Below, piece after piece: positions 1 through 64,000 of a stretch of DNA of 64,000 bases. Source of the DNA: Dulcicalothrix desertica PCC 7102 (GTDB lineage: Bacteria; Cyanobacteriota; Cyanobacteriia; Cyanobacteriales; Nostocaceae); assembly GCF_003991905.1 (NCBI RefSeq), contig NZ_RSCL01000013.1:164360-228359 (forward strand), written 5' to 3'. The first letter of the stretch is position 1. Each line of letters starts with the position of its first letter. The translations under genes and the position numbers were made by a program. The notes under the pieces were generated by a model. That model worked only from the letters and a program-made list of their open reading frames with translations, did no database searches and had not been told where the DNA came from.

Positions 1-2
1 TA

Positions 3-590
3 GAACAAGCGCATAGTGAGATTACTTTGGGTAAAATACCCGATGAAAACCCTTCTATGTATGTAGTTATGCCTACTGGACTTGACGCTTCGATGGCGCC
101 ACCAGGTAAGCATACTTTATGGATTGAGTTTTTTGCACCGTATCAAATAGCTAGTGCTGAGGGTACCGGGTTACAAGGTACTGGTTGGACGGATGAATTG
201 AAGAATAAAGTCGCTGATAGAGTATTAAATAAACTGGCAGAATATTCGCCTAATCTCAAACACTCTATTATTGCGCGTCATGTTGAAAGTCCAGCAGAGT
301 TAGCACAAAGGTTGGGTACTTACGGAGGAAATTACTATCATATTGATATGACACTTGAACAAATGCTGTGTTTCCGTCCGTTACCAGAAATTGCAAATTA
401 TAAAACCCCTATTGACAATTTGTACTTGACGGGAGCCGGCACGCATCCGGGTGGCTCCATATCTGGACTACCAGGACGTAACTGCGCGCAAATGTTTTTA
501 CAAACACATCAACCTATTACGCAAACGTTGAAAAAAACAGCAGATTCGATTCAGTCAACTGTGGAAGCTATGCTTAAAGGTAACTCATAG
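3..590 (+). CDS. C-terminal part of a CrtO/phytoene-desaturase-like FAD oxidoreductase
   Basis: The frame is open from the window edge, so the N-terminal FAD-binding half lies outside; about 195 residues are visible. The run TGAGTHPGGSISGLPGRN near the end is the C-terminal flavin-contacting loop of the COG1233 family (phytoene desaturases, CrtO-type beta-carotene ketolases and relatives), and YYHIDMTLEQMLCFRPLP just before it is also typical. These enzymes desaturate or oxidise carotenoids or similar lipids at the membrane. Exact substrate cannot be decided from the C-terminus: CrtO ketolase is possible but not proven. The stop codon sits directly against a broken transposon recombinase on the other strand. 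Confidence 0.8.
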   Translation, partial: EQAHSEITLGKIPDENPSMYVVMPTGLDASMAPPGKHTLWIEFFAPYQIASAEGTGLQGTGWTDELKNKVADRVLNKLAEYSPNLKHSIIARHVESPAELAQRLGTYGGNYYHIDMTLEQMLCFRPLPEIANYKTPIDNLYLTGAGTHPGGSISGLPGRNCAQMFLQTHQPITQTLKKTADSIQSTVEAMLKGNS

Positions 591-828
591 GTAACTGCAT
601 TTCAGTTTTTTGACTGCGGCTTGAAACTCTGGCATAAAGAACGGTAACTCGTTCGTCTGCTGGATTACCTCTTCGTACAGGGATAATTGAATCGAGGTTG
701 TATCTTCTTTGACCTCCTTGGGTAAAGATTCCTTCGATTTTTCCCGCTTCGAGCCACCTTTCGAGCGTTTTGGTACTGACTCCAAGTTTAGAGGCAGCAA
801 CCCTTGGTGGTACATAATTTGTTGACAT
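591..828 (-). pseudogene. IS607-family TnpA (serine recombinase) N-terminal fragment
   Basis: About 80 codons resemble the start of IS607-type transposase A. Residues 5-45 form a MerR-like helix-turn-helix (ASKLGVSTKTLERWLEAGKI), and residues 63-72 (VLYARVSSRS) are the start of the serine-resolvase catalytic domain with the nucleophile Ser in RVSS. The frame then runs into the complement of the CrtO-like gene and stops at 574-576, so nearly the whole catalytic domain and any tnpB are missing. This is a dead remnant. The break coincides with the neighbouring gene's stop codon, which suggests deletion up to, but not into, the host gene. Confidence 0.75.
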
Positions 829-1033
829 CTCGTGTTTCTAGACTACTTCTTAAGTCTAGTCTAAAATGTACAACATGTCTAGCATGTCTGATGATTTTTT
901 GTCCTATCTTTTACTCTTGGCGCCCATAAAGGTAACTTCTTACTTTGTGCATAATCTCAGGTCATACTTACTACTGATGAAAATATTTTTAAAACCTGTT
1001 CAAATGTATAAAGCGTAGCTAAATTGTAGAACT

Positions 1034-2125
1034 ATGACAAAGCGGGTTTTAATTCTCGGTGGACGAGGAAGGATTGGCAGCAGCGTTGCTCAGGATATTG
1101 TCGCCCATACTGAGGCGGAGGTAACTATTACTGGTCGTAGTCCTACAATTAAACCTAACGATGGGCGCCTGCAATTTTTACAGTTAGATTTAGCCGAAGA
1201 TGATAAGCTACGCACAGCTATATCTAATTCAGACGTTGTTGTTCACTGTGCAGGTCCATTTCACTACCGCGATGCGAAAGTTATTAAATACTGTATTGAG
1301 CATGGTGTAAATTATCTTGATGTTAGTGACCATCGCTCTTTTACTATTAAAGCTTTAAAATATCACAAAGATGCTGTAAAATCAGGTATCACCGCTATTG
1401 TTAATACTGGTATATTTCCTGGCATATCAAATAGTATGGTACGCCATAATATAGAGCAATTTGATACAGCAGAAACAATTCATTTGAGCTATTTAGTTGC
1501 TGGTTCGGGTGGCGCCGGTGTAACTGTAATGCGAACAACTTTTTTAGGTTTGCAAAATCCCTTCGATGCTTGGATTGATGGACAATGGCAAGTTGTTAAG
1601 CCTTATACTCAGCGTGAAACTGTTGAATTTCCAAAACCATACGGTCGTAGTGGGGTGTACTGGTTCGATATGCCAGAAACTTTTACTCTCCCTAAAGCTT
1701 TTCCTACCATCAAAAATGTAATTACTAAGTTTGGCTCGGTTCCTGACTTTTATAACCACTTAACTTGGATAGCTGCCAATATTTTCCCTAAGTCTTGGAT
1801 ACAAAGTAAGTTTGGTGTTGAGTTTCTATCGAATGTTAGCCACAAAATGACTGACGTTACTGATGCCTTTAGCGGTATCGGTGTTGCAGTGCGTTCGGAA
1901 GTTAGCGGTATTAAAGACGGAAAAAATGCTACTTATTGCTCTACTTTAGTACATAACAACACCGCAATCGCAGCAGGCGCCGGAACTGGCAGCATTGCTC
2001 AGTTATTGCTTGACGGGTATAGCAAACCTGGCGTTTACCCAGTCGAAGAAGCATTACCCACATCTTTATTTGAACAAACGATGCACAGTCGAAAAATTAA
2101 TATTGATTATCATTGGCTTCCATAA
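1034..2125 (+). CDS. Saccharopine dehydrogenase-like NAD(P)-binding protein
   Basis: A 363-residue protein starting VLILGGRGRIGSSVA (residues 5-19), a Rossmann dinucleotide-binding loop of the saccharopine dehydrogenase-like superfamily (COG1748). The rest has the expected layout: beta-alpha-beta repeats to about residue 120 (VVHCAGPFHYRD, then GVNYLDVSDHRSF), followed by a catalytic/dimerisation half. True lysine metabolism is unlikely in a cyanobacterium; many such proteins are reductases of unknown substrate. The gene lies 440 bp downstream of a CrtO-like oxidoreductase in the same direction, so a shared role in lipid or pigment chemistry is possible but is inference. The ATG has only a weak ribosome site. 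Confidence 0.75.
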   Translation: MTKRVLILGGRGRIGSSVAQDIVAHTEAEVTITGRSPTIKPNDGRLQFLQLDLAEDDKLRTAISNSDVVVHCAGPFHYRDAKVIKYCIEHGVNYLDVSDHRSFTIKALKYHKDAVKSGITAIVNTGIFPGISNSMVRHNIEQFDTAETIHLSYLVAGSGGAGVTVMRTTFLGLQNPFDAWIDGQWQVVKPYTQRETVEFPKPYGRSGVYWFDMPETFTLPKAFPTIKNVITKFGSVPDFYNHLTWIAANIFPKSWIQSKFGVEFLSNVSHKMTDVTDAFSGIGVAVRSEVSGIKDGKNATYCSTLVHNNTAIAAGAGTGSIAQLLLDGYSKPGVYPVEEALPTSLFEQTMHSRKINIDYHWLP

Positions 2126-2671
2126 TTGTGGAACAGGCATCTTGCCTGTGAATTTCTAAAGTCAACTTCATAAGTTTTACTTATATAAATATTTATTACC
2201 AAATCCCTGACATAATTAAAATTTCATTTTAATTATTGTTGGTAATTTACCAACAATCGGAATTAGATATGTATCTATTATCACATTTTTACTCATTTTA
2301 GTAATAAAACTTTATGTAGATTGTAAAGTTACTCATCCAAGAGCTTAAAAAAAGCTAAAATTGTAAGAATCACAACTGATTCCACGCTATAAGAGTATTT
2401 GATGATAATAAACTTTTTTGCTTGTTGTGTTGCAAAGCCTATTTGTGCGTAACTGTGTAAATCCTAAGTGTGATAATTGATAGTACAGTTTATTTACAGC
2501 AAATAGCTTAATTGCGAGGATAAATTATTAATACACAACAACCTGATAAGTGATTCGAGCCAATCTCAGTTCATTAGTAATGCGTGCTGTTGAGAGTAAC
2601 TAGTTTATTCGGCAAGTAAAGCAGGCTAGCTTCACCATTGAATTACTTTTTATTATGTTTAATTAATTGAT
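2126..2671. other. Gene-free spacer with dispersed repeat and paired hairpins
   Basis: No convincing gene in about 545 bp of AT-rich DNA. It starts with one copy of the GGAACAGGCATC-type dispersed palindrome (2127-2150), then two back-to-back perfect inverted repeats (2213-2257). The remainder up to the receiver gene is AT-rich and probably holds its promoter; the longest possible peptide seen, near 2401, is only 16 codons. Confidence 0.6.
2213..2257. terminator. Two abutting perfect inverted repeats
   Basis: The first hairpin has 10-bp arms (taattaaaat / attttaatta, loop ttc, 2213-2235). The second has 11-bp arms (attgttggtaa / ttaccaacaat, one central base, 2235-2257). They share a single base. 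Downstream of the 1034-2125 gene they could end transcription, but they lack a GC-rich stem plus T-tract, so a protein-binding site is equally possible. Confidence 0.4.
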
Positions 2672-3124
2672 ATGCAGGGTAAATGCTGTACTGAGTATAA
2701 TGTTGTGGCAAACAGGACTTGTGATTATGAATCAACCTTAAATCGATCTAAGGTGTTGATTTTAGTCATTGATAACGATGAAGATAATTTGGAATTGACG
2801 TCAAAGCTAATTAGTTATTATGGCTTTCAAGTGATGACAGCCACAAATAGTCTTAAAGCTTTGGAGATTTTTAAACAATACCAGCCAGCAATGGTAGTCT
2901 CTGAGCTAATGCTCCCCGATGTTGATGGCATTGGTTTTGCTACATGTGTAAGAGCGGGCGCCAACGAAACTCCAATAATTGCTTTAACTAGTTTACCAAG
3001 CCATTTATTTTACGAACAAACTTTGAGGGCTGGTTTTAATGCCTATATTGAGAAACCATTCGAGTTTGAAACTTTAGAGCATGTACTTACTCGTTGTTTG
3101 AAGCTATTACCTTCTCTCTCTTGA
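2672..3124 (+). CDS. Stand-alone receiver domain protein with Glu at the phospho-acceptor position
   Basis: A 150-residue protein that is essentially one CheY-like receiver domain (residues about 27-145) with no output domain. The acidic pocket (D34, D36, E37, D38), the switch threonine (T106 in ALTS) and the lysine (K128 in EKPF) are present. The phospho-acceptor four residues before the conserved Pro is Glu78 (SELMLPDVDG), where receivers normally have Asp. D-to-E changes often mimic the phosphorylated state, so the domain may be constitutively on. The first 25 residues are atypical and the true start may be further in. Its 3' end overlaps the convergent DUF2294 gene by 38 bp. Confidence 0.8.
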   Translation: MQGKCCTEYNVVANRTCDYESTLNRSKVLILVIDNDEDNLELTSKLISYYGFQVMTATNSLKALEIFKQYQPAMVVSELMLPDVDGIGFATCVRAGANETPIIALTSLPSHLFYEQTLRAGFNAYIEKPFEFETLEHVLTRCLKLLPSLS

Positions 3125-3524
3125 CTTTAGGAATAGATTCCGGGTCACGAATCGATGGTATATTACTCAAGACGGCAATAATGCCAGAGACATCTTTTCT
3201 CAAATCGCTGTTTATTAAGATTGTATCTACCCCGGTTCCAAGTATTTCTTCGAGTATTGCTTGTAATAAAGGTTTCATTTCAATATCAAGTTGATTCCGG
3301 AGTTGATATGCAAACTCTGGACGTTGACTCTCTAATAATAAACGCTCAGATGGAGTAATGATTCTTTCGAGAACCATTGCCAGTTTTTCGTCAAAGAACT
3401 GGCATGTTATTTTCTCAGGACGGCGCCCAATTTTTTCAAAGTAAAAAGCTTGTAACTTTTGCGACAGATTTCGTTCAAGTTGTCCGCGCGTTATATCTGA
3501 TGCAGCCATATGATTTAGCTCCAT
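3087..3524 (-). CDS. DUF2294 family protein
   Basis: A 145-residue protein matching the DUF2294 pattern: a helical start (QLERNLSQKLQAFYFEKIGR), then GRRPEKITCQFFDEKLAMVL and a segment like LTPxExxLL (ITPSERLLLESQRPEFAYQL). The family is common in Firmicutes and cyanobacteria, often near Na+ or stress genes, and has no established biochemical role. It lies 67 bp downstream of a Na+/H+ antiporter in the same direction, so the two are probably cotranscribed. An internal Met at residue 6 is an alternative start. Confidence 0.75.
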   Translation of the reverse strand: MELNHMAASDITRGQLERNLSQKLQAFYFEKIGRRPEKITCQFFDEKLAMVLERIITPSERLLLESQRPEFAYQLRNQLDIEMKPLLQAILEEILGTGVDTILINSDLRKDVSGIIAVLSNIPSIRDPESIPKVKREKVIASNNE

Positions 3525-3591
3525 TATTTGTAATAACTCGAATTAATTCAAGGAGAAGTCAACCCGACTTCCCTTATAATGCTATTTTGAT

Positions 3592-4890
3592 TTACTCAAA
3601 TTCATCTATCGTAGCCGGCATTTGTTTTTTGGGCTTTTTGGCAGCAACATCGCGCTCGTACCAGTTCATTAGTGGCGTAGAGCTTACACCATGTATGATT
3701 ACAGAAATTACAATCACAGTATAAGTTATCCAAGCTATTTGTTCACCAAGTTCACCCTTTAGACCGTTGCCAAAAGCATAGGCAAGGTAGTATAGCGAAC
3801 CAACACCACGAATTCCAAACCACCCCAACAATAACCGCGTGCGTCCATCCGTTTTACGATTAGAATCTGGAGAGCGCATACCAATCGTGCTGACCCAAGT
3901 ACCTAAAGGTCTGATCACCAAAAATAGTAATACTGTAACTATTAATGATTGAACAGCATAATTCACCATTGGTTCTACTAATAATATAGTACCCAGTACT
4001 AATATAGTACCAATCTCTAATAACTTTTCGATACGCTCAATAAATTCCAATTGTGCTAGTGGTTTTTCAGGGTTTCTGTAACTGCGTTGTACTACTAATC
4101 CAGCAACAAACACAGCTAAAAAACCATATCCATTAACAATTTCTGTTAAAGAATAAGTCAGTAAAATCGTCCCTAACGCCACAAAATCTTCCATTAAACT
4201 ATCGGCAGGACGCACACGCTGTATTTTACGGTCAACCCAAACAACAGCTCTGGCAATAATGATACCCATTACAATACCTGCCAATATTGCCCATATTAAA
4301 TCAACTAAAACCCAGTTTTTTAACCAATTATTCCAATTATTATCTTTGAGTGCATGAATTGCAAAATAAACGAAAGGAAAAGCTAAAGCATCATTTAGAC
4401 CACCTTCTGATGTTAAGCCAAAACGTAATTCATCTCTATCTTTAACATCTGTTAGCTGTACCTCTGATGCTAGTACCGGGTCTGTCGGCGCCAAAATTGC
4501 TCCCAATAATATAGCTCCTGCCCAGTCCATTCCCAAAATATACTTACCAACTAAAGCAATAGCAAAAATTGAAATTGGCATCAGTAAAGCAATTAACCTT
4601 ATGGTTATATTCCATGTTCTTAGTCCTAGAGGACGGACAATCTTCAAACCGCAGCTAAAAACAGAAATAATTACAACCAATTCGGTTATTCTTTCTAACA
4701 CTTCAGCGTTGAATGTTTCTGCAGCGCGTAGGTTAATCAGTCCAAAGGCATAAGGTCCAAGAAAAATACCTACCACAAGATAGATAAGAGCAAATGAAAG
4801 TGGTAAGCGCGAAATCCACCCAGACCCCAATGTTACCGTTAATAGCAGCAACCCAATTACCAGCAGGTCAAGGATGTAAATATCAATCAT
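3592..4890 (-). CDS. Na+/H+ (cation:proton) antiporter, CPA1/NhaP type
   Basis: A 432-residue polytopic membrane protein with about 12 hydrophobic helices. Diagnostic CPA1 motifs are LAPTDPVLASEVQL (T136, D137, P138) in the unwound helix and SEGGLNDALAFP (E162, N166, D167), the ion-binding pair. It exchanges Na+ or another monovalent cation for H+ across the plasma or thylakoid membrane and supports pH and salt homeostasis. There is no long cytoplasmic C-terminal tail, so it is closer to short NhaP forms than to those with regulatory domains. DUF2294 follows in the same direction. Confidence 0.92.
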   Translation of the reverse strand: MIDIYILDLLVIGLLLLTVTLGSGWISRLPLSFALIYLVVGIFLGPYAFGLINLRAAETFNAEVLERITELVVIISVFSCGLKIVRPLGLRTWNITIRLIALLMPISIFAIALVGKYILGMDWAGAILLGAILAPTDPVLASEVQLTDVKDRDELRFGLTSEGGLNDALAFPFVYFAIHALKDNNWNNWLKNWVLVDLIWAILAGIVMGIIIARAVVWVDRKIQRVRPADSLMEDFVALGTILLTYSLTEIVNGYGFLAVFVAGLVVQRSYRNPEKPLAQLEFIERIEKLLEIGTILVLGTILLVEPMVNYAVQSLIVTVLLFLVIRPLGTWVSTIGMRSPDSNRKTDGRTRLLLGWFGIRGVGSLYYLAYAFGNGLKGELGEQIAWITYTVIVISVIIHGVSSTPLMNWYERDVAAKKPKKQMPATIDEFE

Positions 4891-5012
4891 AAATAAAACC
4901 AGGGGGATGCGATGAGGTCAATAATTAATAACCTTTTTGATTAATGTAATTATTGAGACCGCTATTTTAATCACCACAACAGAGGAATTTTTATAACCTT
5001 GCGATAGATTTC

Positions 5013-5265
5013 TGGCAACGGATGTAACGGATGTAACGGATGCAAATTCGATATTTGTCTAAATATAACTAAGACTTACGCTCAGAAACCCGGTTTATAA
5101 GCATTCATTGTCGCAGACAAATCATTATTTTTATTACAAGATTTCAATGAAGAAACCCGGTTTCTAGGATTTTATGCGTAAGTTCTGATAACTAGTAATT
5201 TATTTTACAAAGATTAGGAAAAAATACATTAATTATCCGTTACATCCGTTAATAATCCGTTGCCA
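5013..5265. mobile_element. MITE-like element with long terminal inverted repeats
   Basis: The left end reads tggcaacggatgtaacgg followed by another copy of taacggatg. The right end, read on the other strand, begins tggcaacggattattaacgg and continues atgtaacgga, so the roughly 35-bp ends are imperfect inverted repeats. A second nested inverted repeat (acttacgc near 5073 against gcgtaagt near 5177) flanks an internal copy of the AGAAACC..GGTTTCT double-palindrome unit (5084-5165). There is no coding capacity. No clear target duplication was seen, so mobility is inference. Confidence 0.5.
5084..5165 (-). repeat. Double-palindrome repeat unit, copy 1
   Basis: Two AGAAACCSGGTTT-type palindromes (5084-5096, degraded; 5151-5165, intact) separated by a spacer whose complement contains the core ttgtaataaaaa. 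It matches in reverse orientation the units at 6975-7041 and 16659-16724. Confidence 0.65.
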
Positions 5266-5539
5266 ATGAGGTTTTTAACCCCTTATACATATAGTTAACT
5301 AAATATGGTAAGTTGAAATTATCAAGAATTAATAGCCAAAACGATGGTGGGCGCCAAGTTGATTATCTCTGGTTATGGCATAGATGAATATCAATGATAC
5401 TTTTAATTATCGCTAATTGATATTTAATCAAACCAAGTAAATAGATACATAGTTTACTCAAGCTTTTTGCTTTGTAATGTGGCTATCTACATTACAAGTT
5501 GAGTCATGCAAGTCAATCGGTGCATTCAAGGAGCAGCAT

Positions 5540-5980
5540 ATGAGTCGTTTGTTGTACGAAAGTTCAGTCTCGTATAAGGGTTATCTGATCATTCCTTTTG
5601 TTTTTAATCAAGTGGATGGTAATGATATATACTCGTATAAGCTTTTAGCAGAAATCGGATACCGAAGTCGTTATCACAAAGCCGATAATCCTGCTAAGTC
5701 ATACGGAGCTAGTATTGGTAATGTCGTTGATATTGCCAAAGGACATCTTGACAAGTACTCTGACTTTACTAGTCGAGAAGATGTGTTCAAGCATCGTTAC
5801 ACTTTTCGTCACAATCTCATCATTATTTTCAACGAAGCCAATAAATACTTCTATGACCATTATCCCCCTGAAACTTTGAACAATATTGCGGCACCGAAAG
5901 TGTTCACATCTGAAATAGACTGTATCAGTTGGATAAAGCAAGGGATGGATGGGTTGCACGTGCGACGACAAGTCAGGTAA
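5540..5980 (+). CDS. Hypothetical protein, 146 residues
   Basis: No family recognised. The ATG at 5540 is chosen because a good ribosome site (AAGGAG, 5528-5533) sits six bases upstream; the frame stays open 21 codons further back. The protein is soluble, mixed alpha/beta and rich in Tyr and His. It starts MSRLLYESSVSYKGYLIIPF, has AKSYGASIGNVVDIAKGHLD in the middle and ends with DCISWIKQGMDGL. Palindromic repeats on both sides make it look like a solitary transcription unit. Codon use is like its neighbours. Confidence 0.65.
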   Translation: MSRLLYESSVSYKGYLIIPFVFNQVDGNDIYSYKLLAEIGYRSRYHKADNPAKSYGASIGNVVDIAKGHLDKYSDFTSREDVFKHRYTFRHNLIIIFNEANKYFYDHYPPETLNNIAAPKVFTSEIDCISWIKQGMDGLHVRRQVR

Positions 5981-6002
5981 TAAAGGGCAACTTCATATTT
6001 CA

Positions 6003-6134
6003 CAGAAACTGGGTTTCGTAAAAGTTGCCCGGTTTCTTCGATTTTTTGTTGAATCTTATACATAACTCTGGCGACTACTGAAAATTTTGGTTACAATCCT
6101 AGAAACCTGGTTCCTTGTTGAAACCCGGTTTCTT
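6003..6134. repeat. Cluster of AGAAACC..GGTTTCT palindromes
   Basis: Four half-preserved copies of the 15-bp palindrome in two pairs (about 6003-6036 and 6101-6134), for example agaaacctggttcc followed by gaaacccggtttctt. They fill the spacer between the 5540 gene and the 6253 gene. Confidence 0.6.
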
Positions 6135-6252
6135 AATTTTTGTGAAAAAAATTCACATATATTATCTTTGAATCAAGTTGATAAACTTGATTGTTATATA
6201 GTACTATACAAATATTTATCTATTTATTTATTGAAACAAGGAATTAGTAGCT

Positions 6253-6972
6253 GTGGAAAATGACTTAAAAGGTTTAGATATAAGTAAAAAAGAATTGCAG
6301 CAATTTACAAATTTACCAGTAAATGAAGAACTTACACTCGTTGTTAATCAATTTAAAAAAGTTGTAAATAATTTTTTTGAAAGAGCTAGAGGTCCAGAAG
6401 CTGCTACTGCCTATTTTCTTGGTATATCCTCAGTAGTATTTAGTTATCTAATTTTAGGCGCCGTTGGTAGTCTAATGATGCCTTGGTTGCCTGTCCCATC
6501 ATGGCTTGTAGCTTTATTATTGTTAGGAATTGGTGGCGCCGCTTCTCAATATATTTTATATTTTATCTGGAAACAAAGGAACAAAATTGTCCAAGCTAAT
6601 ATTACTCCTTCTTTAAAGATTTTATTGAGTGATGTTGAAAGGTATAATAATGTTATTAAAGCTATATATATTAATGATGAAATTGAAGCTGCGGGCAATG
6701 TAGATGTAAGTATTAAAGAGAGACACAAAGTACTTGATGCTTTATCGCTCACACGCGCAGATTTAATTAGAGCATTAAAAACAGAACGAATTTTGCGTGA
6801 GAACAAGAATTTTATTATTGGTAATAGCGAATTATTTGCCAATAATCTACCAACTTTAAGCGCACTTCAAGTTAGTGAACAAGCTACTGAGCATGGAAGG
6901 CTGTTAAACGAGGCATTACAAATTGCTTTAGATGTACAGTTGGAAATGAAACGTTTGCAAAGCCAAAGCTAG
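6253..6972 (+). CDS. Hypothetical membrane protein with two hydrophobic helices
   Basis: A GTG start preceded by AAGGA (6237-6241) gives 239 residues. A soluble N-terminal helix region (1-48) is followed by two long hydrophobic segments (about 52-78 and 82-106, the second containing WLVALLLLGIGGAASQYILY). A roughly 130-residue, helix-rich and probably coiled-coil C-terminus follows (SLTRADLIRALKTERILREN, then ALDVQLEMKRLQ). No family recognised. The topology suggests a membrane-anchored protein with both ends on the same side. The palindromic unit at 6975-7041 starts right after its stop. Confidence 0.7.
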   Translation: MENDLKGLDISKKELQQFTNLPVNEELTLVVNQFKKVVNNFFERARGPEAATAYFLGISSVVFSYLILGAVGSLMMPWLPVPSWLVALLLLGIGGAASQYILYFIWKQRNKIVQANITPSLKILLSDVERYNNVIKAIYINDEIEAAGNVDVSIKERHKVLDALSLTRADLIRALKTERILRENKNFIIGNSELFANNLPTLSALQVSEQATEHGRLLNEALQIALDVQLEMKRLQSQS

Positions 6973-6974
6973 TT

Positions 6975-7041
6975 AGAAACCTGGTTTCTTTGTTGAGATA
7001 TTGTAATAAAAACAATGATTTTAGATAGAAACCAGGTTTCT
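6975..7041 (+). repeat. Double-palindrome repeat unit, copy 2
   Basis: Perfect 15-bp palindromes agaaacctggtttct (6975-6989) and agaaaccaggtttct (7027-7041) flank a 37-nt spacer containing gatattgtaataaaaac. The two palindromes are also complementary to each other. The unit is nearly identical to the one at 16659-16724. Confidence 0.8.
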
Positions 7042-7087
7042 TGGATTTGGTACATAATGGGAAGTGGATAGGCATGGTTATTAGTCA

Positions 7088-7879
7088 ATGAGTTGGAAAG
7101 AAATATCCGGTAATTGGGTTTTAGCGACAAAGCAAAAACCCCTTGGTATCATACATTTTCTAGGTGGCGCCTTCGTTGCGACTGCACCACACGTTACATA
7201 TCGTTTGCTGTTAGAAGCGTTGGCTGAAAAAGGTTATATCGTAATTGCCACCCCGTTTGTCAATACTTTTGACCACGATGCTATTGCACAGCAAGTACTA
7301 CTCAACTTTGAGCGTGCTATGATTCGTCTTGAAGAACGAGGTATATTAGGCAATGGCTACCTACCAATATATGGTATCGGACATAGTATGGGTTGCAAGC
7401 TGCATTTACTTGTCGGCAGTCGCTTTCCAAAAGTTGAGCGTGCTGGAAATATTTTTATTTCCTTCAATAACTACGCTGCACGTGATGCAGTTCCATTTAT
7501 CGAGCAATTTAACACAGCGTTTACAAATTCACAGCTTGCCGTTGAGTTTGTTCCTTCACCAGCACAGACGAACGATTTAGTTCGTGAATACTATAATGTT
7601 CGTCGTAATCTATTAATCAAATTTACGAGCGATACAATAGACCAATCAGTGGGCTTAAGCGAAATTTTAAGAGAACGCTTTAATGATATGGTGACGATGC
7701 AAATAATTGCTGGAAATCATCTTACACCTTTAGGTCAAGATGTAAAATGGCAAGCAGGACGTGACTTTAATCCACTTGATGCTATAGGACAATGGTTCAA
7801 ACAAGAAGTATACCGTGACCTAAATCTACTAAAAAGCATTATTCTGTTATGGTTGAATCCTTTATTACCACCAGTTTGA
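7088..7879 (+). CDS. DUF1350 family alpha/beta-hydrolase-like protein
   Basis: A 263-residue protein of the DUF1350 family, found in cyanobacteria and plastids. IIHFLGGAFVATAPHVTYR (21-39) is the oxyanion-side strand and loop. YGIGHSMGCKLHLL (95-108) holds the nucleophile elbow G-H-S-M-G with Ser100. FISFNNYAARDAVPF follows. The fold predicts an esterase or lipase-like activity, but no substrate is established. The candidate catalytic His is in AGNHLTPLG. No signal peptide, so it is probably cytosolic or peripheral to membranes. The gene lies 53 bp ahead of the response-regulator phosphatase and may be cotranscribed with it. Confidence 0.88.
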   Translation: MSWKEISGNWVLATKQKPLGIIHFLGGAFVATAPHVTYRLLLEALAEKGYIVIATPFVNTFDHDAIAQQVLLNFERAMIRLEERGILGNGYLPIYGIGHSMGCKLHLLVGSRFPKVERAGNIFISFNNYAARDAVPFIEQFNTAFTNSQLAVEFVPSPAQTNDLVREYYNVRRNLLIKFTSDTIDQSVGLSEILRERFNDMVTMQIIAGNHLTPLGQDVKWQAGRDFNPLDAIGQWFKQEVYRDLNLLKSIILLWLNPLLPPV

Positions 7880-7931
7880 AGCTTGCAGTTAGTAGTTGAT
7901 AATTTCTAATAGTTTTTCGCGGCTATCTCTT

Positions 7932-19390: not shown

Positions 19391-20551
19391 ATGAACAGAC
19401 GTTATTTTTTAATTGGTACTGGTGTAATATTTTCGCAGTTGCTCATAGGATGTTCTGATAATAAGACTAGATTAACTGTAGAGTTATTAAAAAATTCACT
19501 ACCTGCTCAGGTAGTTGATGAATTTCGTAGAACTTTAAAATCGAATACAGATATTAATATTGCGCTGGTCGAGCAATTTAAAGATGTATTTAATAAGCTT
19601 GAAACTTGGCAAAAACCTACTCAACCAAAAAATGATTTATTTGGATGGTTTCGGCGCCTATCGTCTGGTAATTCAGGTAATGAGAATAAAATTTCGACTG
19701 ATTTAGTTAGTTTAGGTGATTATTGGCTTCAAGGGGCAATAGAAAAGAAATTAATTCAACCGATAGATGTAAGTAAAGTTCAACAATGGTCTGTTTTGCC
19801 ACAACAATATAGAGAACTAGTCACGCGCAACGATAAAGGATTTGTAGACCCACAGGGTAAAATTTGGGGCGCCCCTTACCGTTGGGGAAATACAGTTATT
19901 GTTTACCGTCGCGATAAATTTGAGGAAAAAAAGTGGGCGCCAATCAAAGACTGGGCTGACTTATGGCGCCCAGAATTACGCGACCGAATTTCATTATTAA
20001 ATCATCCACGCGAAGTTATTGGTTTAGTTCTAAAAAGATTAAATAAATCTTATAATGAAACTGATTTAAAATCTATCACCGAATTAGAACGTGAATTAAA
20101 CAATTTAAACCAACAAGTTAAATTTTACGGCTCGACTCAATATATAGAACCTTTATTAATAGGTGACACATTAGCCGCAGTTGGTTGGTCACAAGATATA
20201 TTACCAGCCCTGGCTAACTATCGAGACCTTGCAGTAGTTGTACCGCAGTCTGGCACCGCTCAATCGGTAGACTTATGGGTTAATCCCAGTGGGCGCCAAA
20301 GCCAGCAAGAACTTGTAACACAATGGATTAATTTTTTATGGCAACCAAAAATAGCTAGACAAATAGCAACACGTACTCGAAGTCACTCACCAATACCTAT
20401 AAAAATAGAAACATCAGAAATCCCAGAAGCATTGCGTAGCTCATTAATAATAAGTCAAAATATCCTCGATAAAAGTGAATTTATACTTCCTTTGCCAGTC
20501 GAAGTAGAACAGCAGTATATTAATTTATTTGAGAGCATGAAAAAATCTTAA
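19391..20551 (+). CDS. PotD-like extracellular solute-binding lipoprotein
   Basis: The ATG at 19391 (MNRRYFLIGTGVIFSQLLIGC) gives a lipoprotein signal with lipobox LIGC; the frame continues 25 codons upstream, but that part is a dispersed repeat (ggtgggcagtgcccacc). The mature protein of about 370 residues has the two-lobe periplasmic binding layout (LVSLGDYWLQGAIEKKLIQP, WGAPYRWGNTVIVYRRDKF, LAAVGWSQDILPAL), like spermidine/putrescine binding proteins. It is probably an outer-face lipoprotein of the plasma membrane. No ABC permease or ATPase gene is adjacent, so the ligand and transporter are unknown. Confidence 0.82.
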   Translation: MNRRYFLIGTGVIFSQLLIGCSDNKTRLTVELLKNSLPAQVVDEFRRTLKSNTDINIALVEQFKDVFNKLETWQKPTQPKNDLFGWFRRLSSGNSGNENKISTDLVSLGDYWLQGAIEKKLIQPIDVSKVQQWSVLPQQYRELVTRNDKGFVDPQGKIWGAPYRWGNTVIVYRRDKFEEKKWAPIKDWADLWRPELRDRISLLNHPREVIGLVLKRLNKSYNETDLKSITELERELNNLNQQVKFYGSTQYIEPLLIGDTLAAVGWSQDILPALANYRDLAVVVPQSGTAQSVDLWVNPSGRQSQQELVTQWINFLWQPKIARQIATRTRSHSPIPIKIETSEIPEALRSSLIISQNILDKSEFILPLPVEVEQQYINLFESMKKS

Positions 20552-38588: not shown

Positions 38589-39086
38589 TTATATTTGTTT
38601 TTGTTTAGCTTCTGACTGCCATTCTTCAATTTTTATAGTTCCTGTCTCTTCTTTTAAATAATTTGAGTAATCAATTTTTTTGAATTCTTGAATAGTAGAG
38701 ATATCAAGAATTTCATCTTCAACAAGTTGGGGCATTAATAAAACAGCACGATTTATATTTTCAAAGTTATCATTGCTACCCGCACCTGGTAAGTCAAAAT
38801 AACAGAGATTACTAGCTAGCTTAAAATATCCTACACTGTCGGTACAGTCCATATGCCCTGTAGATTCCATTTTTACTTCTTCTAACAGGCAATTTCCTAG
38901 AGAGGTTTTCCCGGCGCCTGTACGCCCAGTTACATATAAATTTATAGGCGCCGCGAATAGGTCATTGTTTTCTCTAAAGGCGCCGACTAATTTGCTTGAC
39001 TCTATATCACCGAGTTGAATGATTTTTAAGAGGTCTGGTTGGTCATGAAAAATTGAGCGAAGAGTTTCTAATGCGTTGTCTGACAT
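38589..39086 (-). pseudogene. C-terminally truncated GTPase
   Basis: The Met at 39086 (MSDNALETLRSIFHDQPDLL) begins a 165-residue protein with a P-loop GTPase start: LYVTGRTGAGKTSLGNCLLE (G1, K60, T61), TGHMDCTDSVGYF (G2 region) and YFDLPGAGSND (G3, D98). The protein ends soon after LDISTIQEFKKIDYSNYLKE and EEWQSEAKQKQI, where related cyanobacterial GTPases continue with a beta strand of the APDVILY type and the NKxD motif. With G4 and G5 missing it cannot be a normal GTPase. It is either a broken gene or a deliberate short form. Confidence 0.6.
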
Positions 39087-51060: not shown

Positions 51061-51061
51061 A

Positions 51062-56808: not shown

Positions 56809-57156
56809 TTAGTGACGCTTGGCAAGGGTTTTGTTAGCGGCGCCTTTCTCTTGCATAGAGTATTTGACAATATTAGCCAATTCTTGTAACTGGTTAACAG
56901 CCTCTGCTCCTTCCAACTTCATTAACTCACGGTCATCACGCATTTCAGTCCAGGTAATTCCATAATCGGATACCAAAAACCGAATTAAGTGGTTTTCTCC
57001 TAAGCTCACCATAAATGAAGCACTGTTCATTTGGTCGCCACAGGTATAGCAAGATGCAGGATAGCCACGACGTTCGAGTACTATCGCCAATGCCTGTAAA
57101 TTCATTACCAAGTCTTGGACAAATTGCCTGTGTTGTTGCGCTAATCTTAGAAACAC
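56809..57156 (-). CDS. DUF1815 family protein
   Basis: A GTG start with a near-consensus ribosome site (AAGGAGG, eight bases upstream) gives 115 residues. MFLRLAQQHRQFVQDLVMNL, RRGYPASCYTCGDQ (two cysteines three apart) and HLIRFLVSDYGITWTEMRDD match DUF1815, a cyanobacterial family of unknown function. The strong ribosome site suggests high expression. Confidence 0.88.
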   Translation of the reverse strand: MFLRLAQQHRQFVQDLVMNLQALAIVLERRGYPASCYTCGDQMNSASFMVSLGENHLIRFLVSDYGITWTEMRDDRELMKLEGAEAVNQLQELANIVKYSMQEKGAANKTLAKRH

Positions 57157-58139
57157 TATTTTTCCTCCTTACACCACGGTATCGGGCGTACTTTTATATT
57201 TTCTTTAGATTTTCTCATGAACTGGTATTGTAGACTAATCATTACAATTTCCAGGTCATCTACAAAGTCCCGGAAAGCTACCTCACGCTTAAGGTAGTGT
57301 ATAGGAATTTTTGCTGCCGTATCAAAACATTCACTTTAGACGTTAGTTATATCGGACAGAATCGTCAGATTTAACCTTATCTTCATGTAATGCTTTCTTT
57401 GTAGACTTAGCCATTGTAGTGATTCCGCTTTAAGACTAACTCAGATTGAGTACAAGTCAAACACGGAAAAGCTACAAATAGCACAAAAATTCACGAACCG
57501 CCGTAACATGTGCTACTTTTCTTAAGAAAAACGATGGAATTTTTAATTTTGTACCATCAGTTTGCTCAAGACTATAAGCCTTTCACACTAACAATAACGC
57601 AAATAAAAAAATCGCTATTCTTGAGTACACAAGTCTAAATATATACACGCTTTTGCTATATCCTTGTTGTATTCTTACAAGGCAAAAGCTTATTTCACTT
57701 GCCTTCCAACTAAAAATACAACTAAGTATAAGTAAAAAAAGTGTTGAATTAGACTAATAGTCAAGATAGTCTGCTTTCGTACTAATTTAATAGATGCCCT
57801 AATTGGTTAATACACCTAATAACTTGTATAGACTTATATCAATGCTGCTGCTGATATAAGTTTGACTACAATCCCGAAGTAACCCTGAATCGCTCGACTG
57901 ATAAAAATGAAGATAACTGAGCCTCGGTAGAGAATGTTGCCATTTCGGCAGGTCGATTCTTAAGCTTTAATAAAAAAGTATCAATAACTACTTAGCTCTC
58001 AACCGTTAGTTATATTTTAGAATTTTCAGTATTGTAGATTACTATTTGTCCAAGTATTTACACTAGTTTAATAAAAATACAACTGGGTCAGGGAAAATAG
58101 ATACGTATGTTAAATCTTTTCCCTTGACCTTTTTGGCTA
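57157..58139. other. Long spacer without a firm gene (983 bp)
   Basis: The longest gene-free stretch of the window. A 23-codon reading frame (57343-57414) is the only small ORF worth noting. The segment 57880-57970 is richer in GC than its surroundings (ending atgttgccatttcggcaggtcg) and could be a structured RNA, but no known RNA family was recognised. It also must hold promoters for DUF1815. Confidence 0.5.
57343..57414 (-). CDS. Possible 23-codon Lys-rich peptide
   Basis: MAKSTKKALHEDKVKSDDSV then RYN. ATG present, no good ribosome site. It lies in the long spacer upstream of DUF1815. Could be chance. Confidence 0.2.
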   Translation of the reverse strand: MAKSTKKALHEDKVKSDDSVRYN

Positions 58140-58355
58140 TTAATCTACAGTTTGCCACCAACCGAAAGCTGGACCAATAAAACGCACTGTTAACCAGATA
58201 GCGACCATTGCACCAATTCCAAACCAGGCGCCCTTAGTAGTCCATTTGACAAACTTTTCGGCTTGGGTTTTAGTAATGGGCAACCACGGCAGAATTTGCT
58301 GTTCCTGCCCGTATTTTTCTCCTAGCGATTCTTTGCGACGTTTAGCTTCACCCAT
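58140..58355 (-). CDS. DUF2839 family membrane protein
   Basis: The Met at 58355 (MGEAKRRKESLGEKYGQEQQ) is the conserved family start and gives 71 residues; the 16 upstream codons are not part of the family. ILPWLPITKTQAEKFVKWTT is followed by one transmembrane helix (GAWFGIGAMVAIWLTVRFIG) and a short end. Function unknown; widespread in cyanobacteria. Confidence 0.88.
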   Translation of the reverse strand: MGEAKRRKESLGEKYGQEQQILPWLPITKTQAEKFVKWTTKGAWFGIGAMVAIWLTVRFIGPAFGWWQTVD

Positions 58356-58471
58356 AATTTGATTAAAATTTGGTATTTCAAACACACTTACACGCGCTAT
58401 CATAGCGCGATTAAATGGGCATTGAGCATACGTTATAGGTTACAGAATATTATCAAAGTAGTACATAATAA

Positions 58472-59998
58472 TTAGTCATTGTTGGTTGAGTTGAATAAAT
58501 TTGGGTCGAGGTAGTTAATGCGAGAAAGCGGACTAAGAGAATTGAGAATTTGGGCGCCATAGCTACGGTTAACAACACGACTATCGAGTAAAGCGACCAC
58601 TCCTTGGTTTTCACGAACTGGTGCGATGGCACGCTGTAATTCATTTAAAGCTGTGGGTAAAAGGTATAACCGAAACCAATCTTGATGTGTACGCTTGTAA
58701 TATGACACCCTTAGTGATACCAAGGGGTTTTCCAACGATGGTAAAGGTAATGTGGCAATAATCATTAGAGTCGGTGAAGGTAAAACGCTTTGATGCTCAC
58801 GCCAAAATTCCCAACCTGTCACTAAAATACCGTTTTCATCCAAACAAGTTTTCTCAACTTGCACCCGTGAACCAAATTCTGATGCCAAAATTGTCCCCAC
58901 TTGCGCTTTGAGTGGCACATCCCCTACTAAAATTACCGTTAACCCAGGCGCCGTTGCACTGAGGCATACTAATGTACGGGTTTTATGAATAAATGCCGCT
59001 TGATATTCGGGTGTATTAGGTAGGGGTAAGTTGTAAGGGACGTAAAGTTGTATCGCTTCGGTTTGATTATCACCAGAAAATTTTAAACAAGTTACCTCTC
59101 CTACACCCATACGCTCTCGAAATAATGGCGCCTCGGTTTCTGTTTCTACAGCACTACCAATTAGTACAATTGGTTGACGCTGCCAAATCGGCGCCAATAT
59201 TTGACCGAATTTAACTGGGCAGGTATGTAAATAAAATGTCCCATACGTTCGATTAATAGTAGCCCAAAGAAGAGGAGATTCAGATTGAGGTTGAAAATTA
59301 GAATAGAATTTTTTCCATGTGTCAGGGAGGGTAGGTATATCTAAAACTGAATACAATCGCTGTAAAATTTCGATTTCAAGATCAGAGACTGCATAGCATT
59401 CGTAAGGATTAGCGGGATGTTTAAAGATATTGTGCGTTAATTCAACCCTCGCATTGCGAATAACTGACTCGTGAAACGGATAAGCTAGCGCAAGCGAGTC
59501 CCAGCAATTAGGAGAAAGCGTAACAGTAAGACTCGCGCGCACCCAATCTTCTAAATCATCAATACCATCAATAATTGTAGGAATTCCAACTCTGAAGGCG
59601 CCGTTTTGTGTAAGTTGCGCGTTTAGCCAAACTTCAGGTGTCGTTAAAAGTATTCCTTGAAAGTCACCACCGACCCAAGCATCACCCGTTCTAATTGGCT
59701 TATCAACTCGTAACCACTGCTGTAAACGAGGAATTTCGACTTTGAGCAAACGATTTTGTATAACTTCAGGAGCAACAATAACGACTCCAGATTGCCACAT
59801 TAACGCCGACGCAATAAAACTAGTGCGATACCTACCTTGATAACCACAAACTGCGCCGACTTGAATTAAGGCGCTTCTTCCCAAACGCAAGGCGCGCGCA
59901 ACCAACCGCGCCATCGTTAAATGATGGTGCCACGCTGGGAAACCCGCCTGCGACCGCAGGAAGTTGTGTAATGACAAATGAACTTCTGCCTCAATCAC
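58472..59998 (-). CDS. DinG-like helicase-related protein with altered ATPase motifs
   Basis: A GTG start gives 508 residues. The protein follows the layout of DinG/XPD-like helicases in cyanobacteria (ARLVARALRLGRSALIQVGA, VVIVAPEVIQNRLLKVEIPR, LTTPEVWLNAQL). But the Walker A position reads GYQGRYRTS, with Arg58 where the Lys of GxGKT belongs, and the Walker B/DEAH position reads TIIDGIDDLED. ATP hydrolysis is therefore doubtful. I believe this degenerate form is a conserved cyanobacterial family, so it is probably a real protein with a non-catalytic or altered role rather than a pseudogene. Confidence 0.7.
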   Translation of the reverse strand: MIEAEVHLSLHNFLRSQAGFPAWHHHLTMARLVARALRLGRSALIQVGAVCGYQGRYRTSFIASALMWQSGVVIVAPEVIQNRLLKVEIPRLQQWLRVDKPIRTGDAWVGGDFQGILLTTPEVWLNAQLTQNGAFRVGIPTIIDGIDDLEDWVRASLTVTLSPNCWDSLALAYPFHESVIRNARVELTHNIFKHPANPYECYAVSDLEIEILQRLYSVLDIPTLPDTWKKFYSNFQPQSESPLLWATINRTYGTFYLHTCPVKFGQILAPIWQRQPIVLIGSAVETETEAPLFRERMGVGEVTCLKFSGDNQTEAIQLYVPYNLPLPNTPEYQAAFIHKTRTLVCLSATAPGLTVILVGDVPLKAQVGTILASEFGSRVQVEKTCLDENGILVTGWEFWREHQSVLPSPTLMIIATLPLPSLENPLVSLRVSYYKRTHQDWFRLYLLPTALNELQRAIAPVRENQGVVALLDSRVVNRSYGAQILNSLSPLSRINYLDPNLFNSTNND

Positions 59999-60138
59999 AC
60001 GCTTTACGTTCCATACGAAATTTTGACTTTAGAGAGCAATTATGCGCGCTCCACAAAAACGAGGCGCCATCGTTAACCATGTGGGCAATTGTTATATTAG
60101 CCACATAACGAACGTTTTGGTTATAAACAAATTGCATT

Positions 60139-61104
60139 ATGGCTTCTTACCCAGGAATTAAAGCGGAAGCATTCCGACATCCCTTAGATAGGCAAGCGGA
60201 ACAGACGCTCCGCAGCCTACCAGGGTTCGATTTCCTTGCACGTAAATTTGTAGAATTTTTTGCCGAACGCCCGCAGTTAGTTTTTCTAATGGGCAACACC
60301 ATCCAAGTTGGGCCTCGTCAATATTCCACTATTTACCATATGTTTCGCGAATGCGTGCGGGATTTGGACATTACCTACGAGCCTAAACTGTTCATCGAAC
60401 AAAATGCTGTCGCCAACAGCTACTCGCTTGGAAAAGAAAACCCCTGCATCGTCATCAATACAGGTATACTAGACTTGCTTAGTGAAGTCGAGATTAGGGC
60501 GGTGTTAGCCCATGAACTGGGGCATATTAAGTGTGGTCATACTATTTTAATTCAAATGGCGAAGTGGGTGAGTCAGGCTGCAACTGCGATTGGTCAGGTA
60601 ACATTTGGTGTAGGTAAATTTGTCAGCCAGGGTTTATTGCTAGCCTTTTACGAATGGCGCCGTAAAGCTGAATTATCGTGTGACCGTGCAGCTTTGCTTG
60701 TTATTGAAGACCTAAACACGGTGATGAAGACGATGATGAAAATAAGTGGAGGTAGTATAAATTATGCCCACGAGTGCCATTTACAAGAGTTTATAAAACA
60801 GTCCGAAGAATATCAGGCACTCGATGAAGACGGGCTGAACCAGGTTTACAAACTGCTAATGTATTCGGGGGTAATAGGGGAAATGCAAAGCCACCCTTTC
60901 GCTGTCGAGCGTGTGCATTATTTGCGTGAGTGGGCAGTATCAGAAGAATATCAGCAAATACTTCAGGGCAATTACATGCGTTCACCTGCTGAAGGAGCCG
61001 TTAATGTTGAGGTAAATAATGATACTGAAGCTGATCAACTCAGGCGCCAGCTTGAGGAACTCCAGCGTGAAATTGAGAGAATCCGTAGGACGGGAAACCA
61101 ATAA
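60139..61104 (+). CDS. M48-family metallopeptidase (HtpX-like, soluble form)
   Basis: A 321-residue protein. The zinc motif is VLAHELGHIKCGHTILIQMA, and the third ligand is the Glu of RRKAELSCDRAALLV. ENPCIVINTGILDLLSEVE precedes it. One hydrophobic patch after the motif may touch the membrane, but there is no signal peptide. The C-terminus is a charged coiled coil (ADQLRRQLEELQREIERIRR). It probably acts in protein quality control. It differs from the first M48 gene of the window (16825), which has a signal sequence. Confidence 0.88.
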   Translation: MASYPGIKAEAFRHPLDRQAEQTLRSLPGFDFLARKFVEFFAERPQLVFLMGNTIQVGPRQYSTIYHMFRECVRDLDITYEPKLFIEQNAVANSYSLGKENPCIVINTGILDLLSEVEIRAVLAHELGHIKCGHTILIQMAKWVSQAATAIGQVTFGVGKFVSQGLLLAFYEWRRKAELSCDRAALLVIEDLNTVMKTMMKISGGSINYAHECHLQEFIKQSEEYQALDEDGLNQVYKLLMYSGVIGEMQSHPFAVERVHYLREWAVSEEYQQILQGNYMRSPAEGAVNVEVNNDTEADQLRRQLEELQREIERIRRTGNQ

Positions 61105-61185
61105 TAGCCTAAAAATTGCTCTACAACAATTAAAATTTCTGAACAGTGTAGGTTTATACTATTTGAAAATTGTATAAGCAATATA

Positions 61186-62154
61186 CTAACTTTTAGGTTC
61201 TACCTGGGAATTACAAGCATAAGTGGCATAGCCACTTTTTTTTTGATTATATGGCTGGAAAGCTCCGCGCGCTTCTAGCATCTGTACAACACTAAAAGAA
61301 TTGGGGTTTCGCATCAAAGAGCGCAAAAATTTTAAACGAGTCACGCTTTGAGCTTCGGTGTCTAGCTCCTCAAAAATACGGATTTTTTGGTGTCGCGATA
61401 AATCTCCTTTAATTTGTGCCATTACCGAGACAATCATTTGCTGTGGTTCAACCTGCATAACAAGCAAAAATTTAGATAAAGTTTCCACAATTGTGCTTTG
61501 GCTTTCTGTACTTAAAGGCAAATTATGAAATAACATTACCGACGTTGCGTGATGACGGCTTTTATCTGTCAAAAAACCTTGTAATATCAAGCTTATATCA
61601 GGTTCATAACATTCTATTGCCAAGCTACGATAGTAACTCAAACTCCACCCATCTAAAACTAGAAGCACAAATAAAATAACAGCTTTATCTTGAACATCAA
61701 TTACATCATTTAAAAATTTGAGTAATTGATTGTTTTCGTCTTGCTGTATTGTTGATGGTGGAATTGGAATAAATGGTTTAATTTTGGCCACGTGCATCGC
61801 TTCATCAGCACAAAACAAACTATAGAGCATTTGTTCTTCAGTACTTTCATGCATCAGCACCAGCTTTGCCATATAATTTACACAAGCTTTTTCAATTATG
61901 TATATTTGTTCTAGTACATAGTAATTGCAAAGCTGTAATATTTTGGTTTGATGGTAAAAATCAGCAGATTGAAAGCTTTTGACTTTGTTCAAGCCAAAAT
62001 AGCTGGCGCCCCAGTAGATAGGGGTGTTCTCTGTAGGTGATAATTGACTGTTGTGCCCAAGTCGGGCGCCTAGTTCAGAAGAAAGCCAACATAAAAGTTT
62101 ATTTTCTTCGGAATTTGGTAGATTTGACCCTGGTATAAATTGTTGTTTAATCAT
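61186..62154 (-). CDS. Ferritin-like di-iron protein of unknown role
   Basis: A 322-residue, mostly helical protein. EQIYIIEKACVNYMAKLVLM and FCADEAMHVAKI give an E...ExxH iron-ligand pattern, and the second half has LTDKSRHHATSVMLFHN, so it probably belongs to the ferritin-like superfamily (di-iron oxygenase of AurF type is one option). The last 60 residues are poorly conserved in appearance. No neighbours suggest a pathway. The assignment rests on motif reading only. Confidence 0.5.
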   Translation of the reverse strand: MIKQQFIPGSNLPNSEENKLLCWLSSELGARLGHNSQLSPTENTPIYWGASYFGLNKVKSFQSADFYHQTKILQLCNYYVLEQIYIIEKACVNYMAKLVLMHESTEEQMLYSLFCADEAMHVAKIKPFIPIPPSTIQQDENNQLLKFLNDVIDVQDKAVILFVLLVLDGWSLSYYRSLAIECYEPDISLILQGFLTDKSRHHATSVMLFHNLPLSTESQSTIVETLSKFLLVMQVEPQQMIVSVMAQIKGDLSRHQKIRIFEELDTEAQSVTRLKFLRSLMRNPNSFSVVQMLEARGAFQPYNQKKSGYATYACNSQVEPKS

Positions 62155-62513
62155 TTTATTTATAAATCAGACGACACCACAGACAGCGTATCTAGCCGAG
62201 GTTGCATCAAAAATATAAAATTATTCACGCTTGTGGTAGAAAGGGAATGCCAAAAAAAGTAATCTATATTCCAGCCTGTCATAAATAGAGCAATTTAGTT
62301 ATTTAGTTATGTGGCACTAAAAAATCTGTCATATATCCAACCTCATTTTCTGCAATTTGTGCAATAGTAAATACATCACCTAGCTAGTTGCATGTTGTTT
62401 AAGTACAAATGTGATTAAGCAAACACCAAAAGAGACGCGGCTGCTGAACCATGTCTCAACTCTTCAAAAGTAAAAACTTACTTGAGTACTAGTTATTTAC
62501 AACTAGAGGTTTC
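62155..62513. other. Divergent spacer upstream of rtcB
   Basis: About 360 bp, AT-rich. It separates the divergent ferritin-like gene and rtcB. No small gene or strong hairpin was seen. Confidence 0.45.
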
Positions 62514-63962
62514 ATGCAGCCCAAAAATATGTGTCGTCTCCTGCGTGCGTTGTCGCGTCAGGGTCTAAATGTTAGTTACGAAAATAAAACCTATTCGGTT
62601 CGCTTAAATAAATTAAAGCAAGATGTACCTGTTGCTTCGGTTCTTTTACCCGAAGATTTTCTAGTTGAAGCAAAGGCTTTGAATCAACTTGCGCTACTTG
62701 CTAGTATGCAGCATCCTGCTGGTGGGTGTGTATGCGGCGCCTGTGCTACACCAGATTTTCATCCAGGAGATGCAGGTGTTGCTATTGGTTCGGTTATTGA
62801 AACCGAGAATATGGTGATTCCTGCTGCCGTCGGTTCTGATATTAACTGCGGGATGCGGTTACATGTTGCAAATTTAACCATCGAGAAATTTCTGGCACAG
62901 CGTGATAAATTTGTTGAATTAATGAAAGGCGATTACTTTTTTGGTACTCGTGATGTCACAATGAGTGCTTCTACAATGCGCGCGCTGTTTCAGGATGGTG
63001 TCCTGGGATGGGTTGATGCTATGTGGAAGGCGCCAACAGGAAGTTTTGTTAAATCAGATTTTGCACAGTTAGCCAAAGAAGTAGACCGTATTTTTCTTAA
63101 TGGTTCGATGGAAGGTAGCTGGAAAAAGGCGCCATCCGAACTTGTGCCAGATGAAGGAGTTGTGCGCGATGGAGGTTTAGCCACTATTGGTGGTGGTAAT
63201 CATTTTGTGGAAATTCAACGTGTAGACAAAATTGAAAATCGTAGACTCGCGCATTTATGGGGAGTAAAAGAAGGGCAGCTTGCTTTTATGATTCATTCTG
63301 GTTCACGTAACGTCGGTAAATATATCGGTGGTGCATGGCGTGATAAAGCAAAAGCTGCTTGGGGTAAAAGTGTAAAATATCCTGACTCGAACATCTTCCC
63401 ATTATCAACAAATTCGCACCCTGAACTCGTAGCAAGTTATCTACAAGCAGAAGCAACAGCAGCAAACTATGGATTTATGAATCGTTTACTTTTAGCGGAG
63501 TTATTACGACTACGGTTACGCCAAGTATTCGGTGATATCGAGGCGCCGCTAGTTTACGATTTACCTCACAACATTACTTTACCTCAACCCGTAATTAACA
63601 AATGGGTGACACGTAAAGGCGCCTGTCCAGCATTTGATAACCAACCCGTAATTATTCCCGGTTCAATGGGCGCCAGTTCATATTTATGTGTGGGAAAAAG
63701 TAACCCTAAATTTCTAAATTCCGCATCTCACGGTGCAGGAAGACAACGTAGTCGCTTTGAATTAACCCGTCAAGGTGCTTCATATACCAAAGAAGAACTA
63801 GGATTAACTGGAGTTGATTGTATTACTTTACGGGAAGAACGTCGAATTGAAGAGGCGCCTGTCGCTTACAAACCCATACAATCAGTTATTGATGTACAAG
63901 TAGAAGCAAAAATGATAGAAGTTGTAGCAACGTTAAGCCCAATATTAACCTTCAAAGCCTAA
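62514..63962 (+). CDS. rtcB: RtcB-family RNA ligase
   Basis: A 482-residue protein with the RtcB fold: AAVGSDINCGMRLHVANLTI (Mn-binding D109 and C112), GGLATIGGGNHFVEIQ (His), MIHSGSRNVGKYI (His), and LNSASHGAGRQRSR (catalytic His of the GTP-guanylylation loop). It joins 2',3'-cyclic phosphate or 3'-phosphate RNA to 5'-OH ends using GTP. A CxCxxC cluster (GGCVCGACATPDFHPG, C72, C74, C77) precedes the active site and is not in standard RtcB as I recall it; it may bind a metal. Confidence 0.93.
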   Translation: MQPKNMCRLLRALSRQGLNVSYENKTYSVRLNKLKQDVPVASVLLPEDFLVEAKALNQLALLASMQHPAGGCVCGACATPDFHPGDAGVAIGSVIETENMVIPAAVGSDINCGMRLHVANLTIEKFLAQRDKFVELMKGDYFFGTRDVTMSASTMRALFQDGVLGWVDAMWKAPTGSFVKSDFAQLAKEVDRIFLNGSMEGSWKKAPSELVPDEGVVRDGGLATIGGGNHFVEIQRVDKIENRRLAHLWGVKEGQLAFMIHSGSRNVGKYIGGAWRDKAKAAWGKSVKYPDSNIFPLSTNSHPELVASYLQAEATAANYGFMNRLLLAELLRLRLRQVFGDIEAPLVYDLPHNITLPQPVINKWVTRKGACPAFDNQPVIIPGSMGASSYLCVGKSNPKFLNSASHGAGRQRSRFELTRQGASYTKEELGLTGVDCITLREERRIEEAPVAYKPIQSVIDVQVEAKMIEVVATLSPILTFKA

Positions 63963-64000
63963 AAACAAAAACCCATCTTGTGCAATCTCTTGTGGAACCT

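Follow-up and report, generated by a model that had tools for sequence, protein, structure and literature searches.

Why cyanobacterial genomes carry thousands of copies of the highly iterated palindrome HIP1 (GCGATCGC) is a long-standing question. The 64,000 bases of Dulcicalothrix desertica PCC 7102 analysed here (contig NZ_RSCL01000013.1, positions 164,360 to 228,359; hereafter the window) pose this question in another form, as neither HIP1 nor CGATCG occurs in them even once, and the palindrome GGCGCC is dispersed along their whole length (positions 1-64,000, unstranded). What is this hexamer, and what keeps it in place? A full position count gives 118 copies (first at 95, last at 63,854), or one per 542 bp, while an order-2 Markov model predicts 5.0, or 2.5 when the GGCGCC sites are masked, and GGCGCC is the most over-represented palindromic 6-mer of the window (z 48). 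A preliminary description had counted about 118 copies by eye against about 4 expected by chance, had seen no HIP1, and had proposed that GGCGCC is an alternate highly iterated palindrome (HIP) that replaces HIP1. The count proves exact and the proposal is supported by the whole genome (11.42 Mb, 109 contigs), which holds 19,393 copies of GGCGCC, 58 of HIP1 and a single CCGCGG. Neither a GGCGCC frequency near Markov expectation nor abundant HIP1 outside the window, the outcomes named beforehand as speaking against the idea, is thus observed.

The copies lie in genes, on both strands, and in spacers, as had been described. In particular, among open reading frames (ORFs) of at least 100 amino acids, 57 of the 118 sites are in the register GGC-GCC and the other two registers hold 33 and 16, while 12 sites fall outside such ORFs. 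The spacing is near random (coefficient of variation 0.79-1.08), with gaps below 50 bp being rarer than in a random model in all eight sets (2.6% vs 8.8% in the window). Some sites are nonetheless close to each other: the reported pair at 19936 and 19965 is correct (sites 19936-19941 and 19965-19970), whereas that reported at 38947 and 38980 was off by one base in its second member, which starts at 38979 and closes a trio in close succession (38913-38984; sites at 38913, 38947 and 38979). Extreme genome-wide over-representation, near absence of HIP1 and dispersal in genes and spacers, three of the four marks by which an alternate HIP is recognized, are all found; the fourth is a methyltransferase able to modify the word, for which a candidate is described below.

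In the lineage of Calothrix PCC 7103, GGCGCC is an alternate HIP throughout the genus, present as such in all seven of its genomes and in none of the 210 others that complete a family set of 217. Besides the window genome, the genus includes PCC 7103, HK-06/NIES-2101, NIES-4105, PCC 7716 and two metagenome-assembled genomes, C42_A2020_038 and FI2-JRJ7, and its species are as much as 18% apart in aligned sequence. Each of the seven genomes has 7,475-20,380 copies of GGCGCC (1,150-1,711 per Mb) and 31-163 of HIP1, as compared with at most 1,053 of GGCGCC in each of the other 210 and at least 535 of HIP1 in all of these but one, a genome of 3.2 Mb and 88% completeness that has 30. Word statistics drew on 1.44 Mb of genus DNA pooled from the window and genus regions L191-L259, where the observed-to-expected ratio (O/E) of GGCGCC is 35.

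Both motif and lineage have already been published. Indeed, the alternate-HIP concept was known, as the preliminary description had said, and the available sections of Elhai (2015, PMC4390886) report GGCGCC for Calothrix PCC 7103 and D253 as an alternate HIP; this was the only paper found in a search for GGCGCC and Calothrix, with most subscription journals beyond the reach of that search. As described there, the PCC 7103/D253 system shares with ours the hexamer, the near absence of HIP1 and CGATCG, the depletion of GATC and a methyltransferase of GRCGYC type (predicted here), and PCC 7103 is a congener; it differs in being sporadic and having two such methyltransferases, the second perhaps critical, whereas here the trait is genus-wide and a single BsaHI-like copy is present in the window genome and in C42_A2020_038. 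Because these two genomes have only one BsaHI-like copy, a second is not required. The view of alternates as sporadic and not clade-wide fails for GGCGCC. What is new is that a case known from a single strain becomes a trait of the whole genus, together with the orphan methyltransferase and the motif-specific mutation signature presented below.

A cognate orphan methyltransferase had been anticipated somewhere in the genome. Among the C5 methyltransferases recovered, a candidate is found outside the window (G000:C4:441733-442671, G000 being the window genome), but as a BsaHI-type C5 enzyme of predicted GRCGYC specificity it would not be strictly GGCGCC-specific. The protein (PF00145) measures 313-335 amino acids in the genus, and the catalytic motifs PCQ, ENV and QxRxR are conserved in all six genus copies, which stand intact at one locus next to a RuBisCO-like gene in six genomes. 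HK-06/NIES-2101 instead has fragments at contig ends (residues 1-87 and 209-313) and an intact paralog elsewhere (83%). In a tree computed without row L130, support for the genus clade is 100/100 when this paralog is included and 82/56 when the clade is limited to the six. The enzyme is under purifying selection, with ratios of nonsynonymous to synonymous substitution rates of 0.05-0.15 in 15 of 15 pairs of genus sequences.

This enzyme is the likely cognate of GGCGCC. Its proposed specificity draws on homology, on the pairing with PF09519 (the BsaHI/HindVP endonuclease family) in other genera and, loosely, on target-recognition-domain features. M.BsaHI methylates the central C, according to the available part of Neely and Roberts (2008, PMC2413257), and the FI2-JRJ7 orthologue, read by eye, would show the target-recognition features described there for M.BsaHI (an R followed by G or A, both ahead of the TL motif), provided that the spacing refers to intervening residues. 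Outside the genus, 58 genomes have a match to the enzyme (E<=1e-30, fragments included, with at least one distant match, G055, at 32-35% identity), and at 19 of the 23 best-scoring loci fetched from them a PF09519 match, in several cases a fragment only, lies beside it. Counting fragments, PF09519 is matched in 43 of the 217 family genomes and in none of the seven of the genus, other endonuclease families of the same specificity being beyond this search. Outside the genus, the median density of GGCGCC is 0.74 per Mb where a genome has the methyltransferase as well as the endonuclease (n=41), as compared with 5.09 where it has neither (n=150; p 5.7e-7). The candidate is homologous to the methyltransferases of the BsaHI, HgiDI and HindVP GRCGYC restriction-modification systems, where PF09519 endonucleases are the partners; it differs in the lack of a PF09519 match and in that GGCGCC is hugely enriched rather than avoided. 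Another methyltransferase, of 370 amino acids, was set aside as the cause, being general in the family (match in 173 of 217 genomes). At a distance of about 3 kb from the BsaHI-like enzyme, the window genome (L086 5731-11457, G000:C4) and PCC 7103 also have a 658-amino-acid C5 methyltransferase, whose family is present in five of the seven genus genomes. The searches for the BsaHI-like, 370-amino-acid and presumed CGATCG enzymes scored at most 8-10 first-look candidates in each genome.

The HIP1 system, with its GATC and CGATCG methyltransferases, is similar in being a dispersed GC-rich palindrome found about once per kb in genes and spacers and tied to an orphan C5 methyltransferase, and differs in the word and in the enzyme. 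In particular, the presumed CGATCG methyltransferase is matched at E<=1e-60 in 202 of the 217 family genomes and in none of the seven of the genus, where HIP1 is nearly gone. Its presumed specificity derives from Elhai and from its distribution, as it is the sole C5 family common to all ten genomes sampled from other genera and, in one of them (G093), the only C5 match.

How the motif is maintained was addressed by aligning a 220-kb region of the window genome with its six congeners (103-159 kb aligned each). GGCGCC is exactly conserved at 73% of sites in NIES-4105 and 56% in C42_A2020_038, as compared with 47% and 32% for random 6-mers; the four closer congeners show little difference between the two (78-87% vs 75-78%). 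Substitutions were then compared with a background matched for branch, context and codon and recalibrated against control words, since these also undershoot the background of the first suppression estimates (mean 0.69, 355 words), which are superseded. Single-nucleotide losses other than C-to-T at the third base (C3-to-T) number 31 against 136.7, a ratio of 0.23 or about fourfold suppression. Among 319 control words, from each of which its own commonest change was likewise removed, the ratio averages 0.84 and never falls below 0.30, so that none matches GGCGCC. C3-to-T itself is at background, with 81 changes against 69.8 expected. At third codon positions, before recalibration, changes are suppressed as well (position 1: 12 vs 87.6; position 2: 7 vs 32.6). 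Single-nucleotide gains of GGCGCC, on an uncalibrated background, exceed expectation (26 vs 5.6; 9 vs 2.5 without T3-to-C), and T3-to-C makes up 17 of the 26 as compared with 3.1 expected, although parsimony may over-call these. The asymmetry between C3-to-T and the other losses is suggestive of a methylated central C, with which it fits and which would explain the escape of C3-to-T. A first reading, in which 21 of 29 single-nucleotide losses being C3-to-T was taken as proof of deamination, is withdrawn, since the rate matches that of other GCG contexts.

On balance, we consider it probable that GGCGCC is a genus-wide alternate HIP upheld through an orphan GRCGYC methyltransferase that would mark GG-m5C-GCC after loss of the CGATCG enzyme. 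The ancestor of the genus would have lost the CGATCG methyltransferase, and HIP1 with it, and would have kept a BsaHI-type C5 methyltransferase for GRCGYC but not its restriction partner, the losses coming possibly in this order. The retained enzyme would now mark GG-m5C-GCC on both strands, and the motif would be held at about one per 600-900 bp by a process that targets the hexamer, in that replication errors within the methylated site would be reverted or purged and deamination of the central m5C, arising outside replication, would escape. We infer that upkeep is due to methylation-directed repair, as in Elhai's model, rather than to selection. The more specific version, in which, once the CGATCG enzyme was gone, the methylation role of HIP1 passed genus-wide to a restriction methyltransferase left without its partner and a hexamer-local, methylation-dependent repair reverts replication errors and passes deamination, is offered tentatively, at somewhat less than even confidence.

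Several observations weigh against this account. Genomes outside the genus with the methyltransferase and without PF09519 have a median of only 6.08 GGCGCC per Mb (n=17), and therefore an orphan methyltransferase is not sufficient by itself; likewise, eight other family genomes without a match to the presumed CGATCG enzyme keep 2,878-7,016 HIP1, so that lack of that enzyme is not sufficient either. When all changes are counted, the ratio for GGCGCC is 0.54 and five of the 319 control words are equally conserved. The C3-to-T rate at the sites (0.140, n=229) is close to that in other GCG contexts (0.135, n=1,146), and because it is not above them the deamination reading leans on the contrast with the suppressed changes. 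Up to 800 bp from GGCGCC, silent rates do not clearly increase. Around conserved sites they rise beyond 1,600 bp, to 0.227 (2,404 comparisons); when all sites are taken they fall, to 0.076 at 800-1,600 bp, and do not rise beyond 1,600 bp.

The same data may be read as ordinary selection on sites that serve some purpose, such as chromosome organisation or recombination, with methylation incidental and C3-to-T unsuppressed since m5C deaminates several-fold faster. The suppression also seen at third codon positions (before recalibration), the neighbouring DNA without clear effect up to 800 bp and the gains above expectation all speak for it; however, at one position an excess of deamination and a purge, each roughly fivefold, would have to cancel out, and some 19,000 sites would each need to be under weak selection. 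We consider this explanation possible but less probable. The excess of T3-to-C among the gains would be expected if a repair of T:G mismatches akin to very-short-patch repair turned GGTGCC back to GGCGCC and so enriched the motif, and GGTGCC is indeed its commonest one-off word (397 copies, O/E 1.60). Yet such repair would leave the protection at positions 1 and 2 unexplained, C3-to-T is not suppressed, parallel deaminations can be turned by parsimony into false T3-to-C gains, and no Vsr domain is found among the five scanned neighbours of the enzyme in the window genome, the genomes themselves not having been searched for Vsr; we regard it as improbable. An artefact of composition or codon usage, by which Gly-Ala codons GGC-GCC would accumulate in a large genome, could appeal to the 183 of 381 sites of the 220-kb region in that register, but is hardly credible given that GGCGCC occupies all registers and spacers, that the other all-G+C palindromes listed for the pooled genus DNA range from an O/E of 0.01 (CCGCGG) to 4.2 (CGCGCG), and that no more than 1,053 copies occur in any of 210 related genomes.

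Other words of these genomes behave differently. CGCGCG is about fourfold over-represented in the genus DNA, and was rejected as another HIP because it changes faster than background (ratio 1.45 in the substitution test) and is without protection. GATC and GGCC are depleted in the window (17 vs 142-155 and 14 vs 83-103 expected) and strongly so in the 1.44 Mb, where some palindromes are almost wholly avoided (GTCGAC 0; TTCGAA, TGCGCA, CCGCGG and GCATGC 1 each), which suggests many restriction systems, past or present. In two of the three HIP1-bearing stretches viewed in the window genome, every HIP1 copy lies in long GGCGCC-free gaps, within one 4,673-amino-acid ORF (L097, G000:C7) and one run of ORFs (L098, G000:C25), suggesting DNA acquired from HIP1 genomes; this does not hold for L099. 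For a GGCGCC cluster in G004:C4, transfer from the genus was considered and rejected, since the cluster lies mostly in one giant ORF within a stretch of 51% GC. G194 (genus g49) has low HIP1 (535 in 10.7 Mb) though the presumed CGATCG methyltransferase is present, and no substitute word is evident in the 25.7 kb looked at.

In an order set of 388 genomes, 71 of them of the same family, the outlier is G273, a member of another family that has 9,489 GGCGCC in 3.8 Mb (CCGCGG 2,450), followed by G377 (3,403), G224 (2,493), G327 (2,365 in 2.2 Mb; CCGCGG 1,104) and G399 (1,840), and genus g90 is also fairly rich. In 27 kb sampled from G273 (L311, L313, L314, L315), GGCGCC occurs 57 times against 17.6 expected, HIP1 is absent and the 8-mer CGGCGCCG has 28 copies against 1.3 expected; an independent alternate HIP is possible there. 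G377 was rejected as a further case because it keeps HIP1 intact, with 14 copies in 9 kb.

For the biology of these palindromes, the sporadic occurrence of alternates and their failure to persist in clades is one of two arguments for HIP1 function in the available sections of Elhai (2015), and it is weakened because an alternate persists across seven species. The same sections list the methylated base as known for no GRCGYC-specific enzyme, a gap that the base reported for M.BsaHI in the available part of Neely and Roberts (2008) fills. Finally, methylation-directed upkeep becomes testable, because two species have a single candidate enzyme and the mutational asymmetry separates C3-to-T from the other changes.

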